Positions 33,604 through 41,703 of a stretch of DNA of 41,703 nucleotides are shown piece after piece. The DNA comes from Akkermansiaceae bacterium (GTDB lineage: Bacteria > Verrucomicrobiota > Verrucomicrobiia > Verrucomicrobiales > Akkermansiaceae). Within the stretch, counting starts at the first letter, position 1; every line of letters begins with the position of its first letter. The notes below the pieces were generated by a model. It did not search any database and was not told the origin of the DNA. It saw nothing but the letters and a program-made list of their open reading frames with translations. Position numbers and translations under genes: made by a program. The stretch is taken from positions 1-41,703 of the forward strand of contig JANXMQ010000057.1 of NCBI GenBank assembly GCA_025354565.1, given 5' to 3'.

Positions 33604-35742
33604 ATGTCGAACCGACCTGCGATCGGATTGGTGCTGGCATTGCTCGTGGAAGCATCACACTGGGTGCGCATCCGTTGGGATTTTGATGACGAAACTAGCA
33701 GCCGCGCCTGGCAGTTCACGTCGATCGGCATCGGCCTTGCCACAGTGCTCATTTGGTTAGATGGCGACCGCTATACAGCCCTCCCTAGCCTCCTCACTTG
33801 GATGCCCCTCCTGCTAGTGCCAATGCAGTTTATCCAAGCATTCGGAATGCGTGGATCGCTGCCATTGCACACCTTTTCCTTCCTCGCAAATCAACACCGA
33901 AAACGCAATCAACGCTTGGGCCTAACTGAAACCGTCATCTATTTAAATTTCGGTAACATCTACTTCATCAGCACGATGGTCGCCTCGACTCTGGGCAGTC
34001 GAGCCAACGCAAGCACTTGGGGATTCCTAGTCGGAACCATCACCCTGACTGGCTGGATGCTGCTTTCCACCCCTCGCACCCGCCCGATGGCATTAATCCT
34101 CGCGCTACTACTTGCCGCAGGTATGGCAGTAGCGGGTCAATTAGGACTGCAGCGGGCGCAGGAATGGGTCAGCGGCGGCGCAGGTATGTATGATCCGAAG
34201 TTTAATCCTAACAATGTTTCTACGATGATCGGACGACCCGGGGTAGTCCAGCAATCTCCGGATATCGTTTGGAGGCTCCGCCCGTTTGACAAAAATCCCA
34301 TCCCGTCATTATTACGAACTGCAACTTATAATACCTACCGCACCGCGACATGGGAAAACCAACAAATCGCGATTACGGATTTCAAAGACCTCGATACGCG
34401 CGAAACCAGTGACGGAGAAGCCTTCTATCTTCTCAAGGAAAACGCGGATCAAATGGCGATCCGCCCCACGCTTCCACGCTTCAGGTTGCGCGGTGCCGCC
34501 GCTCCGGAAACACCTTTGCCACTGCCGGGTGATGCCGCCAGCTTGCGTGATTTCGCGCTGGACGGAATCGAACGCAACACCTTCGGCTGCATCCGCATTT
34601 TCCCCAAAGAATCCGTGATCGACGGTACTGTCCTCTGGCATGCCGGCACCAATCCAGAGAAGCCGCCGCTCCCTTCGGAAGATTTAAAAATCCCCATTTC
34701 AGAGCAAAAGGTCATTCATCAAATTGCGTTAGAAATCGGACTGGTTTGCGAGCCTCCATTGAAAAAACAAAGCACCCTCCTCCGTTCATTGTCCTCCCCA
34801 CCGGTATCGACTCGTGAAGATTGGATCACCCCGATTCACGGTCGATCCATCGTTAGAGAAAAAGATTTTAAACGCATCCAAAGCCTCACAGAAAAACTTA
34901 CTCTAATTCGCAACTGGTTTAGGGCGCATTTCGAATACTCGAGAAAACTAACAATTTACAGCTCCAGTTATGTTGCCGTATCTCCCACTGGCATCGCGCA
35001 GTTTCTCACTCGGGAACGCAAAGGGCATTGCGAATACTTCGCCACCGCAACCGCTCTCCTTCTGAGAGAAGCAGGCATTCCGACCCGCTATGCAACCGGA
35101 TACGCCGTCGCGGAGCGGGACCCGAAGCGACGCGAGTTCGTCATCCGCGGAACCCACGGTCACGCTTGGTGTCGGGTTTGGGATGAGAACGCCGGAGTGT
35201 GGATTGATTTTGATACCACGCCGCCGGACTGGATGGGTAGCTGGACTCCTACGATCTCCTCGACACAGTGGTTAGACGATGGTCTGAAACGCTACCGCGA
35301 GGACTTTTTCCTCTGGCGAAACCAACCAAGCAATCATCTCGCGGTCATGCTCGCCATGTCGTCCATCGCAATAGGAGTGGGGGCGATTGTGGCGACGCGT
35401 TTATGGAAATCGAAACATCGGGCAGAAAATTTGGCCAAATCCGCCGGTTATGCGGGACCCATCATCCGCACACCGCTGCACAATTTGGAGCCGCAAGCGC
35501 GGAAACAACTCGGTTACCGGCCGCTCGGGCAAACCTATGCCGATTGGTTAACGCGGCTACCCCCTTTTCTATCAGATCCCTCCCTGCTGGAAGAAGCCAT
35601 CGCCCTTCACCAGCGCCTTCGCTTTGACCCGCAGCCCGTGCCATCAGAGCAAAACAAACAGTTGATAGAGCTTACTCAGCACCTTTGCGAGGCGCTCAAA
35701 CCTCTCCACGGCAGCACCACTCTCTATCAGAATAGGAAATAA
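33604..35742 (+). CDS. TgpA-like transglutaminase-domain membrane protein
   Basis: The protein has N-terminal membrane helices (about seven segments in the first 200 residues), a periplasmic region, the transglutaminase core with catalytic C476 in [21 protein letters not shown]520 in [11 protein letters not shown] and D537 in [11 protein letters not shown], a further helix (about 580-600) and a cytoplasmic tail. TgpA proteins are inner-membrane cysteine enzymes partnered with MoxR and DUF58. The ATG at 33604 is the first, but the same frame is open upstream from 33528 and encodes a natural-looking hydrophobic N-terminus ([15 protein letters not shown]), so a non-ATG start near 33541-33571 is likely. 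The 3' end overlaps ureC tail-to-tail by 16 bases. Confidence 0.88.
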
Positions 35743-37448
35743 CGTTGTGCCATCGGGAGGCAGGACATCGGTTCGCAGCTAAGCACCATGCCATCCGCCG
35801 TGACGGTGTAGGTGTCAGGATCGACCGTAATTTTCGGCAGATAATCATTGAAGGGAAGATCACGCTTCGTGATGGCTCGACAATTTTTCACTGCAACCAA
35901 ACGTTTCGTGAGTCCGAGTTCATCCAGACCGCCCGACTCGAGTGAAGCGGCGCTCACAAAGGTGACGGAGGTCGCGGCGATCGCCTTGCCGAAAGCACCG
36001 AACTGAGGGCGATACATCGTCGGCTGTGGTGTGGGAATGGAGGCATTTGGGTCGCCCATGTTAGCCCAAGCGATCAGGCCACCTTTGAGAATGGTTTCCG
36101 GTTTGACTCCGAAAAATGCAGGCTTCCACAACACCATATCTGCGAGTTTCCCGATTTCGATACTGCCGACCTCGTGGGAAATGCCGTGAGTGATTGCGGG
36201 GCAAATCGTATATTTCGCCACGTAGCGGAGCGCACGGAAATTGTCTGCTGCGGGGTGGCCCGGCCCTTCCAGTTTACCGAACTGGACTTTCATTTTGTGC
36301 GCCGTTTGCCAGGTCCGGGTGATCGTTTCACCGATGCGGCCCATGGCTTGGCTATCCGATGACATCATCGAAATCGCGCCCAAGTCGTGCAGTCGATCTT
36401 CCGCTGCAATTGTCTCGGGACGGATCCGGCTTTCTGCGAATGCAACATCCTCCGGAATGCGCGAGTCCAAATGATGGCAGACCATCAGCATATCGAGGTG
36501 CTCGTCGATCGTGTTAGAGGTGAACGGTCGGGTGGGATTGGTCGAGGATGGAAGCACATTCGCCTCCCCGCAGACCCGAATGATGTCCGGCGCATGACCG
36601 CCGCCCGCGCCTTCGGAGTGATAAGTGTGGATGGTCCGCCCCTTAAACGCGGCGAGGGTACTTTCGACAAAGCCCGCCTCATTCAAAGTGTCTGTATGAA
36701 TCGCAACTTGAATATCAAATTCATCAGCGACGCCGAGGCAGGTATCGATGGCAGCAGGTGTCGTTCCCCAGTCTTCGTGAAGCTTCAGGCCAATCACACC
36801 TGCTAGAACTTGTTCGCGGAGGGGCTCAGGCGAGGAACAATTTCCTTTTCCGAGGAATCCGAGATTGACGGGAAAAGCCTCGGCGGATTCTAACATACGA
36901 TGAATGTTCCACTTTCCCGGAGTGCATGTGGTGGCGTAGGTGCCATGCGCCGGACCGGTTCCACCGCCGATCAACGTCGTGACGCCGGAAGCAATCGCGT
37001 GCTCGATCTGTTGGGGGCAGATGAAATGGATGTGAGTGTCGATTCCCCCTGCCGTGACGATGCAACCCTCCCCGGCAATGACTTCGGTAGCAGCACCGAT
37101 GGTCATCGAAATCCCATCTTGAAGAAGTGGGTTTCCCGCATGGCCAATGCCGACAATCCGGCCGTGCTTAATGCCGATGTCTGCCTTGATGACGCCTTGA
37201 GCGGCATCGAGGATCAGGGCGTTAGTGATCACAAGATCGAGTGAATCCCCATCACAGGCGAGCGGCGATTGCGCCATTCCATCACGGATGACTTTACCTC
37301 CGCCAAATTTCACTTCGTTACCGTAGCCCCCGTTTTCAGCGATTAGATCGCGCTCGACTTCGATAAAAATTTCCGTATCGGCAAGGCGAACCTGATCACC
37401 CGTAGTGGGGCCGAACATGCCGGCGTAGTTGGCGCGGGTTTGTTTCAT
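35727..37448 (-). CDS. ureC: Urease subunit alpha UreC
   Basis: The 573-residue protein is full length. Nickel ligands are visible: H139 and H141 in [14 protein letters not shown], the carbamylated lysine K222 in [13 protein letters not shown]251 in VAIHTDT, H277 in [15 protein letters not shown], and D365 in [10 protein letters not shown]; the flap histidine lies in [10 protein letters not shown]. It hydrolyses urea to ammonia and carbamate in the cytosol as an alpha-beta-gamma complex. It overlaps ureB by 4 bases, indicating coupling. The accessory genes ureDEFG needed for nickel insertion are not in this window. Confidence 0.97.
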
Positions 37449-37762
37449 ACGTCTAGCAGTCCGTTCACCAGGTTGTTGAGGCCATGCACTTCACGGGTTC
37501 CGGCGAAGGCCACCAGAGGGATTTCTCGAGTGTCGCCGGGTTCGAAACGGACTGCGGTTCCGGCGGGAATGTTGAGGCGAAATCCCCGAGCCGCAGCCCG
37601 ATCAAATTGAAGCGAAGTGTTCACCTCGAAAAAGTGAAAATGGCTGCCTACTTGGATGGGGCGGTCGCCGGTATTCGCAACTACAATACTAACCGTTAAA
37701 AGGCCGACGTTGAGATCAATCGCGGAAGCGCCCGGCGGGGTAATAATTTCACCAGGAATCAT
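37445..37762 (-). CDS. ureB: Urease subunit beta UreB
   Basis: The 105-residue protein starts [20 protein letters not shown] and contains [26 protein letters not shown]-like [20 protein letters not shown] and [20 protein letters not shown], the UreB signature. It overlaps ureA (37759-37762) and ureC (37445-37448) by four bases each, the tight coupling typical of ureABC. Structural partner of UreA and UreC. Confidence 0.96.
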
Positions 37763-38061
37763 CGGACGGGATTGTGAACGGTGACCAGTTTGGTGCCATC
37801 AGGAAACGTCGCTTCTACTTGGACATCGTGGATCATTTCGGCGATGCCCTCCATGACCTCATCACGGGAGACGAGAGTCGCACCATAGCTCATCAGCTCA
37901 GCCACCGTTTTACCGTCGCGCGCAGCTTCCAGAAGCTCTGCAGTGATGAGGGCTACGGTTTCTGGGTAATTTAACTTGAGGCCCCGGGCACGCCGACGCC
38001 GGGCAAGATCACCTGCCACGACGATGAGAAGCTTTTCTTGTTCACGCGGAGATAGGTGCAT
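37759..38061 (-). CDS. ureA: Urease subunit gamma UreA
   Basis: The 100-residue protein starts [20 protein letters not shown] and continues [40 protein letters not shown] and [20 protein letters not shown], matching UreA over its full length. It is 12 bases downstream of the small membrane protein gene, within the same transcription unit. Confidence 0.97.
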
Positions 38062-38073
38062 CAGGGCGGCAGA

Positions 38074-38370
38074 CTAGAGTAGAGGCAGCATGCCGAGTGA
38101 AGCGAAGGCCAGCGCCAACGCAGCTAACTGAACTTTGGGCTTCGGGTTCAGACACGTGAGGGTAATACTAACAATCACCAATGCTGTCATCACATATTCG
38201 AAGGCACCGTGAGTATGAAAAAATGTCACCTTGAGGAAATCAAACTCATCTGTTTCATCGGGATGAAAGTGACCGGGATGCGCCATCAAAAGCGATGGAA
38301 GAAAACAGGCTGCTGTGCAGAACAAACGCACAACAAGTGTTTTGGCGTCAGCCATTTGGAGATTTTTCAT
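38074..38370 (-). CDS. Small His-rich membrane protein of the urease operon (UreJ/HupE-like position)
   Basis: The product (98 residues) has a signal peptide ending in SLLMA, a mature N-terminus HPGHFHPDETDEFDF, and two membrane helices (EYVMTALVIVSITLTCL and LAALALAFASLGMLPLL). It lies directly upstream of ureA on the same strand and behind a sigma-54-like promoter. UreJ/HupE-type proteins carry an HPGH motif and are proposed nickel permeases; this one shares the motif and place but is much shorter, so a nickel role is inference. In-frame ATGs at 38370 and 38355 both give the signal peptide; the upstream 38427 start would lie before the promoter and is rejected. Confidence 0.7.
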   Translation of the reverse strand: MKNLQMADAKTLVVRLFCTAACFLPSLLMAHPGHFHPDETDEFDFLKVTFFHTHGAFEYVMTALVIVSITLTCLNPKPKVQLAALALAFASLGMLPLL

Positions 38371-38388
38371 AAGTGAATGCTGTAAAGT

Positions 38389-38405
38389 AGCAACGGACAT
38401 GCCAA
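38389..38405 (-). promoter_or_regulatory. Sigma-54 (-24/-12) promoter of the urease operon
   Basis: The minus strand reads TTGGCATGTCCGTTGCT. Against the sigma-54 consensus TTGGCACG-N4-TTGCT it differs at one base (T for C in the -24 half) and has the invariant GG and GC at the correct 10-base spacing. It lies upstream of the small membrane protein and ureABC. The predicted start, 12 bases past the GC, is near 38378, giving a leader of 8 bases (ATG 38370) or 23 bases (ATG 38355). Confidence 0.75.
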
Positions 38406-38415
38406 GCGGGGAATC

Positions 38416-38454
38416 AAAAAAAACCATGCCCCCGAAAAAAGGGCATGGTTTTAT
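38416..38454 (-). terminator. Rho-independent terminator after urtA
   Basis: AAACCATGCCC (38421-38431) and GGGCATGGTTT (38441-38451) form a perfect 11-bp stem, with a T run following on the minus strand. It ends the urtA transcript (stop at 38491) just before the ureABC promoter, so the two halves of the urea locus are separate transcripts. Confidence 0.85.
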
Positions 38455-38490: not shown

Positions 38491-39738
38491 TTATTTGTAG
38501 GTGCCTTTGAGGAATGGCTCACCTACGACGTTCTTGTATTCCTTGAGGATTTTAAACTGGCCATCCGCGCGGGTTTCACCAATGAAGACATTCTTCGTAA
38601 GGTGATGGTTCGCTTGCGTGGTGACCTTGCCACCAGGACCATCGAAAGAGATGCCGCTCTTGAGAGCTTCCATAACTTTATCTACTTCAAAGGACTTGGC
38701 TTTTTCCACAGCGGCCTTCCAGAGGTAAACTCCATCATAGGAGAGCACCATCGGTGAACAAGTGACGCGACCCTCTTTGACGATGCCGGGAACACTGGAC
38801 TTCGAAAGCCATGCTTGGAAATTCTTGATGAACTTGGCGTTGTCCGGGCTCTTGATAGACTCGAAGTAAGTCCAGCAGCCTAACTGACCCACCAGTTGGC
38901 TGGCAGGCAAGCCACGGAACTCATCCTCGGAAACCGAGAAGCTAATCACTGGGCAGGACTCGGCGGTGAGGCCAGCAGCGGCATACTCTTTAAAGAATGG
39001 CACGTTAGTATCACCATTAAGGGTGCTCACGATGCAGGCATCACCACTGGCGGCAAATTGTTTAATCTCTGAGATGATTTGCTGATAATCGGTGTGGCCA
39101 AATGGAGTGTACTTTCCGGCAGAGATGATCTTGCCGGAGCCATCCTTAGTGAAGCCACCGCCGATGTTTTCGAGAGGCACGCCCTTGCTAAGGAGGTACT
39201 CAAGAAGCACGAGGTTAGTCGTCTGCGGATATACATAGTCCGAGCCTAGCAAATAGAACTTTTTCTTGCCCTCAGCGAGAAGGTAATCAATAGCAGGGGT
39301 GGCCTGTTGATTGACAGCCTCTGCGGTATAGAAAATGTTTGGAGACATTTCTTCACCTTCATATTGCACGGGGTAAAAGAGCAGACCCTTCTTTTCTTCA
39401 AACACCGGAAGAACCGACTTGCGGCTTACAGAAGTCCAGCAACCAAAGGTCACTGAGACCTTGTCTTGATCAAGAAGTTGCTTTGCCTTTTCTGCGAATA
39501 GCGGCCAGTTGGAAGCACCGTCCACCACGACAGGTTCGATTTTTTTGCCCATCACGCCGCCAGCAGCGTTGATTTCGTCGAAAGTGAATAACAGAACATC
39601 GCGGAGCGAAGTTTCGCTGATCGCCATGGTGCCGCTCAAAGAATGGAGCACGCCGACTTTGACAGTATCCTCAGCGCGGACAACAGCAGCGGTGAGGGCT
39701 AACGCACCGAGTGCGGAGGGGATGAAACGAGAGATCAT
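38491..39738 (-). CDS. urtA: Urea ABC transporter substrate-binding protein UrtA
   Basis: The 415-residue protein has a signal peptide ([20 protein letters not shown], cleavage near VRAEDTV) and the UrtA pattern: [100 protein letters not shown] and [17 protein letters not shown]. It binds urea in the periplasm and delivers it to UrtBC. Unlike the usual urtABCDE order, the gene here follows a porin and a urtE remnant. A terminator follows it. Confidence 0.94.
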
Positions 39739-39868: not shown

Positions 39869-40891
39869 TCAGAATTTCAGCAACGCCTGGACGCCTGAAT
39901 ACAAGCTATCGGTTACGTCTGAATCAATATAGCTGACTTCCGCACGCATGAGGAAATGATCATTGAATACATACGTTGGCGAGATCGTGTACTTGTATTG
40001 ATCAGGACTGCTGTCGACACCTGCTTCAACATCGTCGAAACCGAAACGGAAGACGGTGGAGAACTTATCAGTGAAAGCGTATTTCAAGAACGCCAAGCCC
40101 TGAATACCACTGGTTGAGCCCGAGTTGTTATTATAAGCAACTTCACCAGCAACAGTTAGCTTAGATGAAATATCATAGCTGGCCCAGACATCATACGTCG
40201 AGTAATCCGCAAGACCATCGGTTTGATCGAAGGCAAAACCCGCCCAAAGGGTGAGTTTTTGAATACCTTTGTAAACCACATAACCTTCGTAGCCGAGGCC
40301 GTTGCCCAGATCTTCATCACCGGTCCAGAAGCCATTACCGCCACGGATAGAATCGGAGACATTGAATCCGGCGCCGAACGTTTCGGTCGCATATTCCGCC
40401 TTGATCCCGCTGTGGTATGCAGGAACGGCACCTACGCCGGAATTTGCGTAGCTGAGCTGAGTCATGTTTACCGTGTCAAAGGCTTCGTATCCCATCCAGG
40501 TAAGATATTTACCACCCGTGATCGTAAAGTCTCCAACCTTATAAGAGAGGTATGCATCGAGAATACCCGCTTCGGTATCACCCACAGCGGTGAAACCTGG
40601 GGTGTAGAAGAGACTCGCGTAGAGGGAGACTGGGCCTTGGGTGGCCGTAAAGCCTACCTTCACAACGTCCAGTTCCGGCCCACCATCGACGAACGTATGG
40701 CTATTCGGACCATCATCCACATCGGTGTAGGTGTAGGCCGCAGCGGCATAACCACTGACTTTCAACCAGTCACTGGTGGCGGCTGGTGCCGGTGCGGGGG
40801 CCATCTCGGTTCCGCCCATCGCGGCAGCCGTGCTAAGCATGAATGCCAAATGTGGCAATTGGTTTTTACTGAAACGTGTTTTGCTTTTCAT
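39869..40891 (-). CDS. Outer-membrane beta-barrel porin
   Basis: The 340-residue product has an N-terminal export signal (MKSKTRFSKNQLPHLAFMLS, cleavage near AAAMG or the Ala/Pro-rich linker APAPAPAATSD), followed by alternating strands such as WLKVSGYAAAAYTYTDVDD, KVGFTATQGPVSLYASLFY and KYLTWMGYEAFDTVN, and ends in the C-terminal phenylalanine (ALLKF) typical of barrel insertion. It resembles the Bbp2-like OmpL/porin family of outer-membrane proteins. Because it sits between urtE and urtA and behind a sigma-54-like promoter, it is probably a porin for urea or similar small nitrogen compounds; this is inference from position. Confidence 0.82.
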   Translation of the reverse strand: MKSKTRFSKNQLPHLAFMLSTAAAMGGTEMAPAPAPAATSDWLKVSGYAAAAYTYTDVDDGPNSHTFVDGGPELDVVKVGFTATQGPVSLYASLFYTPGFTAVGDTEAGILDAYLSYKVGDFTITGGKYLTWMGYEAFDTVNMTQLSYANSGVGAVPAYHSGIKAEYATETFGAGFNVSDSIRGGNGFWTGDEDLGNGLGYEGYVVYKGIQKLTLWAGFAFDQTDGLADYSTYDVWASYDISSKLTVAGEVAYNNNSGSTSGIQGLAFLKYAFTDKFSTVFRFGFDDVEAGVDSSPDQYKYTISPTYVFNDHFLMRAEVSYIDSDVTDSLYSGVQALLKF

Positions 40892-40941: not shown

Positions 40942-40958
40942 AGCTGAATCCGTGCCAA
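40942..40958 (-). promoter_or_regulatory. Sigma-54-like (-24/-12) promoter of the porin-urtA unit
   Basis: The minus strand reads TTGGCACGGATTCAGCT. The -24 half is a perfect TTGGCACG, and the GC of the -12 half has the correct spacing, but the two bases before it are CA rather than TT. The predicted start is about 40 bases upstream of the porin ATG (40891). It would drive the porin and urtA. Confidence 0.6.
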
Positions 40959-41114: not shown

Positions 41115-41562
41115 TTAAACTGTTAAAAATTTCTTCACCACATCCTCTGTGAGGTCGCACATCTGACCTGCTGCGGCCACAGATCCGCGCTCCAAAATTG
41201 CAAAGTCATCTCCCAGTTCCTTGCAGAAATCGAGGTATTGCTCGACGAGAAGAATGCTCATCTCACCTTCGGCTCGGAGCATTTTGATGGCGTCTCCGAT
41301 TTGATCGATAATGTTAGGTTGAATGCCTTCTGTTGGCTCATCGAGAATCAATAGTTTTGGCCTAGTCAGCAAGGCGCGACCAATAGCGAGCTGCTGCTGC
41401 TGGCCACCAGAAAGCATACCCCCCTTGCGATGGAGGAACTCCTTAATGATAGGGAAAAGCGTATAAATACGCTCCGTCTGACTTGCATCGCGCTTCTGGC
41501 CGCGGGCGTTCAATCCGATGAAGAGGTTTTCCTCCACGGTGAGATGAGGGAAAATCTCACGC
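41115..41562 (-). pseudogene. urtE: Urea ABC transporter ATPase UrtE, 5'-truncated at a breakpoint
   Basis: From about 41562 the minus strand encodes REIFPHLTVEENLFIGLNAR, the signature GGMLSGGQQQQLAIGRALL, Walker B LLILDEPTEGIQPNIIDQIG and SILLVEQYLDFCKELGDDFA, matching the C-terminal two thirds of UrtE. Upstream of RE the expected Y-V-P-Q-G and the whole first part with Walker A are absent; the frame instead enters unrelated sequence (FHTDR and a Pro-rich stretch). Without Walker A the product cannot bind ATP. The break could be an insertion, a deletion or an assembly join. urtB, urtC and urtD are not visible. Confidence 0.85.
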
Positions 41563-41703
41563 CGATCGGTGTGGAAAACTCTCAGGTTTGCAGGGTCCAG
41601 AGTTGGCGTAAGCGGGCGATGGATTCGCTCCAGGGGGCCCGTTGGTAAATCCGCACGCGAACCCAACGGATGAATCGCTGGGTTCTCTGCGTGGCTCTCG
41701 TGA

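Follow-up and report, generated by a model that had tools for sequence, protein, structure and literature searches.

Organization of the Urease Locus

A urease operon located behind the terminator of a urea transporter gene raises the question of which promoter serves it and what controls that promoter. Such a locus was found in the window, which is the whole stretch of DNA analysed here (41,703 nt) from an Akkermansiaceae bacterium (GCA_025354565.1, contig JANXMQ010000057.1, positions 1–41,703 of the forward strand). The genome, G000, is a 257-contig draft of 5.1 Mb that is 95.4% complete. A 17-nt element at 38389–38405 is very probably the sigma-54 promoter of the unit mini-UreJ-ureA-ureB-ureC and part of an Ntr-like nitrogen-scavenging regulon.

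The genes of the cluster are located on the minus strand. The urease genes, namely ureA (gamma subunit, 37759–38061), ureB (beta subunit, 37445–37762) and ureC (alpha subunit, 35727–37448), were identified by profile matches. They are preceded by the gene of a small membrane protein of 98 aa (38074–38370), a shortened HupE/UreJ-like protein (mini-UreJ), which was defined using the starts of its relatives and the motif AHPGHxHPxExDEFD. Further upstream, the cluster contains urtA, encoding the substrate-binding protein of a urea ABC transporter (38491–39738; TIGR03407 above the cut-off), and a beta-barrel porin gene (39869–40891; PF07642, BBP2). A partial urtE-like ABC ATPase gene (41115–41702) was found at the contig end; its residues 47–195 match TIGR03410 with 206 bits, below the cut-off of 286. 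Residues 1–46 of this frame (41567–41702) gave no UrtE match, and misassembly at the contig edge is possible there. The intrinsic terminator of urtA has its stem at 38420–38452 (minus strand) and consists of a strong hairpin and a T-run (fold −23.9 kcal/mol, z −4.5). A similar hairpin and T-run ahead of the element was recognised by eye in 10 of 16 loci. A simple sigma-70 scan between urtA and the urease unit found no promoter.

The start of mini-UreJ was set at the ATG at 38370 and not at 38427, where the longest ORF begins, because the related proteins begin at the former; the longest ORF would enclose the promoter. An in-frame ATG at 38355 is a possible alternative start. The motif has 14 invariant columns in seven sequences, and the remainder of HupE/UreJ is missing (38074–38370; L017, L046, L018, L022, L023, L024 and L031). 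None of the three short proteins scanned matched PF04955 (HupE/UreJ), the N-terminal motif being the sole likeness. In the locus L026, the mini-UreJ position is occupied by a full-length PF04955 protein (95 bits). Mini-UreJ may be an extramembrane nickel binder. In addition, RF02514 (5′ ureB small RNA) matched positions 36998–37290 of the plus strand, antisense to ureC, with 109 bits; this is perhaps an overlap of the RNA family with conserved urease coding sequence.

Sigma-54 Element Upstream of the Urease Genes

The element TTGGCATGTCCGTTGCT (38389–38405, minus strand) was found using pattern and amt-matrix scans together with its conservation in relatives. In this orientation it faces ureABC, and it ends 18 nt 5′ of the mini-UreJ gene. 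The classic form of sigma-54 promoters is TTGGCACG; the element differs from it by one letter (T for C), with GG-N10-GC kept, and has no mismatches to the pattern TGGCAYGNNNNTTGCW. GG and GC are 10 nt apart in the context TTGGCAC/T and TTGCA/T. A sigma-54 consensus match with one difference and this spacing had been claimed in the earlier note, as had its place after the urtA terminator and before the small membrane protein and ureABC; the match was confirmed by the pattern scan and the place by the hairpin fold and gene annotation. Using the usual distance of about 12 nt from the GC element to the start, the transcription start was predicted at about 38378, some 8 nt ahead of the ATG at 38370.

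The exact match to TGGCAYGNNNNTTGCW was the single one in a scan of the whole window. At up to two mismatches, 14 matches were found versus 12.8 expected, i.e., no excess over chance, and thus the close match alone is informative. The pattern TTGGCAYRNNNNYTGCT with at most one mismatch was found at two places versus 0.32 expected, and at least two occurred in 2 of 100 shuffles. These places are 38389–38405 and 40942–40958, the latter being located ahead of the porin-urtA unit. A matrix was also built from 23 distinct amt promoter sites of this genome and its relatives; the urease sites were left out, and the amt site of the genome G153, which is identical to the urease 17-mer, was excluded. 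Since resemblance to the sigma-54 consensus had guided the choice of amt sites, the independence of the matrix extends to the urease sites but not to the consensus. Under this matrix, 38389 was the top site of the window with 20.2 bits, which was reached in 6 of 1000 Markov-1 simulated windows; this score is unusual taken alone. The second-best site was the weaker sigma-54-like element TTGGCACGGATTCAGCT (40942–40958, minus strand), which was assigned using the amt matrix and relatives and begins 67 nt 5′ of the porin gene. Its score of 14.1 bits, reached in 250 of 1000 simulated windows, is not significant by itself, so the case for this element rests on conservation.

Across the 5.1 Mb genome, TGGCAYGNNNNTTGCW had six exact matches versus three for the reversed control, and therefore a bare match is weak and the case is carried by position and conservation. 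These counts would fit a chance 17-mer without function, with the urease genes transcribed from another promoter. The contexts of three matches point the same way, namely L011, where the match lies within coding sequence, and L012 and L014, where the contexts are ambiguous (in L012 before an ORF of unclear meaning, in L014 where a PAS kinase gene begins). However, the other three precede the urease genes of the window, the urease genes on contig C174 (L015) and an ammonium transporter gene (amt) on contig C242 (L016). In addition, the element was the top window site under a matrix built without urease sites, and a diverged paralogue has it at the same position, as do 13 of 18 related loci (described below). 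A chance match is thus extremely unlikely, and the sigma-54 promoter is the reading pursued here.

Conservation of the Probable Urease Promoter

The paralogue is a second cluster of the same genome (L110; G000:C174:18000–35162) with the order urtBCDE-porin-urtA-mini-UreJ-ureABC. The order of terminator, element, mini-UreJ and ureABC is kept in it. UreA proteins of the two clusters are 94% identical, and mini-UreJ proteins are 49% identical.

A set of 117 genomes of the family, placed by NCBI in the class Verrucomicrobiia, was searched for UreA, which was found in 29 genomes at 30 places (two in G000). Upstream regions of 700 nt were scored. In the same genus (g1), a score of at least 0.9 was obtained at seven of eight places. 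Six of these sites begin 321–356 nt 5′ of ureA, and the seventh (L026) begins at 663 nt because the full-length UreJ occupies the interval. The eighth place (L024, the same as L101) has a weak site CGGGCATGCCGTTCGCG with a score of 0.8. Among the 22 places of other genera, two reached 0.9 and none reached 0.95; one of them (L045) has just 51 nt of upstream sequence. Among upstream regions with shuffled letters, 3.4% reached 0.9 and 0.5% reached 0.95. In all eight same-genus loci, the element ends 13–33 nt 5′ of the ATG of the small gene.

A mini-UreJ profile scan of genomes named Akkermansiaceae, Akkermansia, Verrucomicrobiaceae, Verrucomicrobia(e) and Luteolibacter yielded 18 loci, a set that appears to share several contigs with the UreA family set. 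An element scoring at least 0.9 within about 220 nt was present in 13 of these loci; L101 has the weak site, and four loci (L096, L097, L099 and L100) have no element; of these, L097 belongs to a Luteolibacter isolate. In an alignment of 18 sites, from which the four loci without a site are omitted, GG and GC were present in 18/18, and the commonest base in four spacer columns occurred 7, 9, 13 and 8 times. Selection of the sites by score partly builds in the fixed letters, and it is the varying spacer and the position that are informative. The element is kept at a short distance ahead of the gene while its spacer varies, as in a promoter.

Sigma-54 sites were also found ahead of the urea uptake genes. 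Of the 20 loci searched (the window, L110 and L086–L103), eight allowed the start of the porin gene to be assigned, namely the window, L110, L086, L088, L089, L091, L092 and L101, the start in L091 being an estimate. All eight have a site with a TGGCAY −24 half and a weaker −12 half, which begins 42–80 nt 5′ of the start and scores 0.85–0.95. In the sister genus g7, urtC, urtD, urtE and ureA are located downstream of urtB on the same strand, and a site scoring 0.85–0.95 was found upstream of urtB in seven of the eight loci fetched (L215–L221, not L224); a ninth g7 place, in the genome G114, lies outside the fetched set. These sites begin 43–57 nt 5′ of the aligned urtB start. In L224, nothing above 0.85 was found. 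The locus L225 (genus g9) has a 0.9 site ahead of urtB. A scan of both strands of 13 loci (171 kb) revealed eight sites scoring at least 0.95, seven of them ahead of urt genes: two before urtB (g7), four about 0.9–1.1 kb before urtA (g10, g12, g14) and one before urtB (g14). The general pattern, as read from the sequences, is that a sigma-54 element heads the urea unit and that another is located directly ahead of urease in the genus where a terminator intervenes (g1).

Sigma-54 Elements at Other Nitrogen Genes

A scan of upstream regions for further sites had been suggested in the earlier note; in this genome, sites of this kind were found at a P-II gene, at two amt genes and at the second urease cluster together with its urtB. 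The amt genes are both located on C242 and have exact elements: the first (L016) has an exact TGGCAYGNNNNTTGCW match, and for the second (amt2), TTGGCACAGCCTTTGCT begins 95 nt 5′ of the ATG. Ahead of the P-II gene, the only one found in the genome, TTGGCACACGCCATGCT ends 27 nt 5′ of the ATG. The C174 urtB has ATGGCACAGGCGTTGCT 16 nt ahead of its likely ATG. A strict element TTGGCACGCGTTCTGCT was also observed at L105:5104–5120 (G000:C84:12103–12119, minus strand), where it precedes short ORFs that matched no Pfam family. Most of the well-placed sites of the genome, not all, mark nitrogen supply genes.

The amt promoters were examined in relatives as well. With the first amt gene as the query, a match at E 1e-60 was found in 9 of 61 same-genus genomes. 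Apart from the own genome, seven of eight have an exact element and the genome G139 has a near one; in G151, the amt match has its site some 140 nt upstream. All 12 further amt2 loci have an exact element; five of them (L125, L128, L134, L135 and L136) were chosen blind to sigma-54 sites, and the other seven were chosen for the site and a 13-mer (see below) together. A wider sample of 30 hand-picked genomes from 15 genera gave 25 amt places in 21 genomes. Within it, amt2 homologues of at least about 60% identity scored at least 0.95 in 8/8 cases, in three genera, and the more distant amt genes scored at least 0.93 in 9/17 cases, with one more at 0.9; 7 of the 25 places have no site of at least 0.9. 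The four genomes of the genus g3 in this sample gave no amt match at E 1e-40.

The pattern TTGGCAYRNNNNYTGCT occurred 229 times in the 61 same-genus genomes versus 44 times for the reversed control, the 229 being only partly classified. In the genome G131, an identical 17-mer TTGGCACAGTATCTGCT was observed near the contig ends of C3, C9, C21, C35, C37 and C41 (bases ~70–95), which suggests a repeated element with a sigma-54-like site; the TTGGCAYRNNNNYTGCT count of that genome is therefore inflated. A Gcw_chp gene is located divergently to amt2 (L104:11138–11848; L125, L135, L138 and L140), and in L125, L135, L138 and L140 it has a sigma-54-like site of its own (e.g., TTGGCACGCGGGATGCT).

RpoN and Candidate Activators

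The sigma-54 reading in the earlier note depended on the presence of rpoN. A single match was found in the genome, with 398 bits against a cut-off of 277 and with all three Pfam domains. In the family, rpoN was found in 109 of 117 genomes and in 90 of the 92 good-quality ones. The genomes G045 (96% complete) and G010 (98% complete) have elements ahead of urease or amt and gave no rpoN match; either a gap in the assembly or a lost sigma factor may account for this.

These two good-quality genomes bear on another explanation, namely that the element is an operator of some other DNA-binding protein and not a sigma-54 promoter, and polymerase binding is in any case beyond proof by sequence. Against this, GG-N10-GC is kept with a variable spacer, the distance to the small gene is that of a promoter in each same-genus locus, the sigma-70 scan was empty ahead of the urease unit and rpoN is widespread in the family. 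An operator is therefore very unlikely, and the element is treated as a sigma-54 promoter in what follows.

A full sigma-54 activator domain was found in four proteins of the genome (L002, L003, L004 and L005); the proteins L006–L010 gave weak activator-domain matches of 21–35 bits. The activator loop, inspected by eye, is GAFTGA in L003 and GSFTGA in L002, L004 and L005. Scores against the NtrC equivalog TIGR01818 were 424, 413, 354 and 166 bits for L002–L005, respectively, all below the cut-off of 558.6. Of the NtrC-like activators for which a search had been suggested in the earlier note, sigma-54 activators were found and a protein at the NtrC cut-off was not, in a genome whose completeness of 95.4% makes an overlooked NtrC gene possible. 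For this reason the system is not termed an NtrB-NtrC system.

The protein L003 (contig C83) has REC, sigma-54 and HTH_8 domains, and its gene follows a kinase gene. The kinase (390 aa) has a PAS domain and no membrane segment, its best 19-residue hydropathy being 1.17. NtrB is likewise built as a soluble PAS kinase. In the family, 114 of 117 genomes, including all 92 good-quality ones, have a relative of L003 (E ≤ 1e-120). Because the kinase is a soluble PAS kinase, its partner binds DNA and the regulator is kept across the family, this pair of a C83 kinase and an AtoC/NtrC-like partner is predicted to be the most likely activator. The regulator probably has further roles, since it is kept in g3 genomes without an amt match.

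The other proteins were considered as well. L002 was rejected as the activator, as no DNA-binding domain was found in it and it gave no match (E 1e-120) in 13 of 13 g3 genomes. L005 was rejected because it is RtcR, by name an RNA-repair regulator. In L004, the regulator gene is followed by the gene of a membrane kinase.

The C83 kinase and regulator score highest against the AtoS and AtoC models. This would fit a genuine sigma-54 promoter that responds to a cue other than nitrogen, e.g., pH or nickel; the adjoining mini-UreJ suggests metal handling, and urease can serve acid resistance. Nevertheless, the genes under such elements, namely two amt genes, P-II, the porin with the urea transporter and urease, have nitrogen supply in common, which makes a different cue unlikely. 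The nitrogen-scavenging interpretation put forward earlier was thus supported: rpoN and four activators are present, the genome has such elements at its amt genes, its P-II gene and its urea uptake and urease units, and related elements are conserved in relatives.

Search for Activator Binding Sites

The 13-mer GGTTTTCGGTTGC recurs upstream of both amt2 and certain urease units. In the 61 genomes it had 42 matches versus 9 for the reversed control. Inspection of 38 of the 42 places revealed four ahead of urease, 14 at Gcw_chp/amt and 20 without a urea, amt or Gcw_chp match; several of these 20 represent one repeated coding context, by eye a tRNA adenosine deaminase. Next to amt2, it falls within the leader of Gcw_chp, the divergent gene; next to urease, its orientation relative to the promoter is the opposite one. 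It was rejected as evidence for an activator site in view of the unrelated contexts, the position in the Gcw_chp leader and the inverted orientation at urease.

The blocks TTGTCCAG and GGCAAGC are conserved in the Gcw_chp-amt2 intergenic regions (13 aligned loci, e.g., L104, L125 and L143) and, judging by this conservation, could be activator sites. Inspection by eye did not recognise them ahead of other units, and the upstream alignments identified no enhancer site ahead of the urease units.

Proposed Regulation of the Urease Unit

The element and its conservation, rpoN, the activator proteins and the set of genes concerned are evident in the sequences themselves. From them we infer where transcription starts, that it depends on sigma-54, that it responds to nitrogen and which activator is used. 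The RpoN form of RNA polymerase would be poised at 38389–38405 in a closed complex. At nitrogen scarcity, this complex would be opened by a sigma-54 activator that has a response-regulator domain, with a start near 38378. The urtA terminator would make the urease unit independent of read-through from urtA, and urease would rise jointly with the uptake of urea and ammonium. The porin-urtA unit, urtB, both amt genes and P-II (in some relatives, also Gcw_chp) would be controlled through like elements; a joint, Ntr-like nitrogen-scavenging regulon is proposed because these units share this kind of element.

A broader model can be offered tentatively. The Akkermansiaceae-like family may possess an Ntr-like sigma-54 regulon without an NtrC orthologue, in which a soluble PAS kinase and an AtoC/NtrC-like activator, perhaps related to CtcB-CtcC, are kept family-wide. 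The promoter may have been relocated within the urea locus. In g7, with urtBCDE and ureABC in series, it would precede urtB; in g1, with the porin, urtA and the terminator intervening, it would immediately precede mini-UreJ-ureABC. Such a model is possible, though doubtful as a whole.

Comparison with Known Systems

Nitrogen control by sigma-54 is known chiefly from Proteobacteria, where the Ntr regulon includes sigma-54, NtrB-NtrC, P-II, amtB-glnK and urease. The system described here is like it in that genes of amt, P-II, urea uptake and urease are preceded by sigma-54 elements. Unlike it, the host belongs to Verrucomicrobiota and no protein reached the NtrC cut-off. A further difference is that, in the genus g1, a terminator splits the urease unit from the transporter, and the unit has its own promoter and begins with the shortened UreJ. 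According to the available text of a 2025 survey of sigma-54 promoters, urease is under sigma-54 mainly in alpha- and beta-Proteobacteria (PMC12316311). Enrichment of nitrogen metabolism is described in that text as completely absent outside the listed classes; Verrucomicrobiia is unlisted there, and Opitutia is included for certain nitrogen-fixation genes (PMC12316311). The same text names Verrucomicrobiia for rpoN autoregulation (PMC12316311).

The chlamydial CtcB-CtcC system also combines sigma-54 with a kinase and an NtrC-family activator. Chlamydiae are relatives of Verrucomicrobiota within the PVC group. The chlamydial sigma-54 regulon concerns, according to the title of the report, membrane reorganisation and type III secretion (PMC7482065). 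As far as the available text goes, CtcC is without a DNA-binding domain (PMC3162934), unlike the C83 regulator with its HTH_8 domain.

The verrucomicrobial methanotroph SolV has NtrB, NtrC-family proteins and P-II according to the available parts of two reports (PMC3404531, PMC5623727), and its activators are listed in one of them (PMC5623727). In cells fixing N2, its amtB was up three- to fourfold, and the text refers in general terms to amtB promoters that depend on sigma-54 (PMC3404531). SolV differs from the present case in that the available text of both reports gives no mapped promoter (PMC3404531, PMC5623727). In these parts, the word 'urease' is absent from one report (PMC5623727), and 'urea' in the other refers to the urea cycle (PMC3404531).

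No description of a regulon of this kind in Verrucomicrobia was found in the open-access literature searched, outside which most subscription journals lie. Sigma-54 promoters are of a known kind, and their nitrogen setting in Verrucomicrobia is new as far as the literature searched reaches. If true, the regulon would extend the nitrogen role of sigma-54 from the Proteobacterial systems to Verrucomicrobiia, and it supplies a small set of promoters together with a single candidate activator pair for study.
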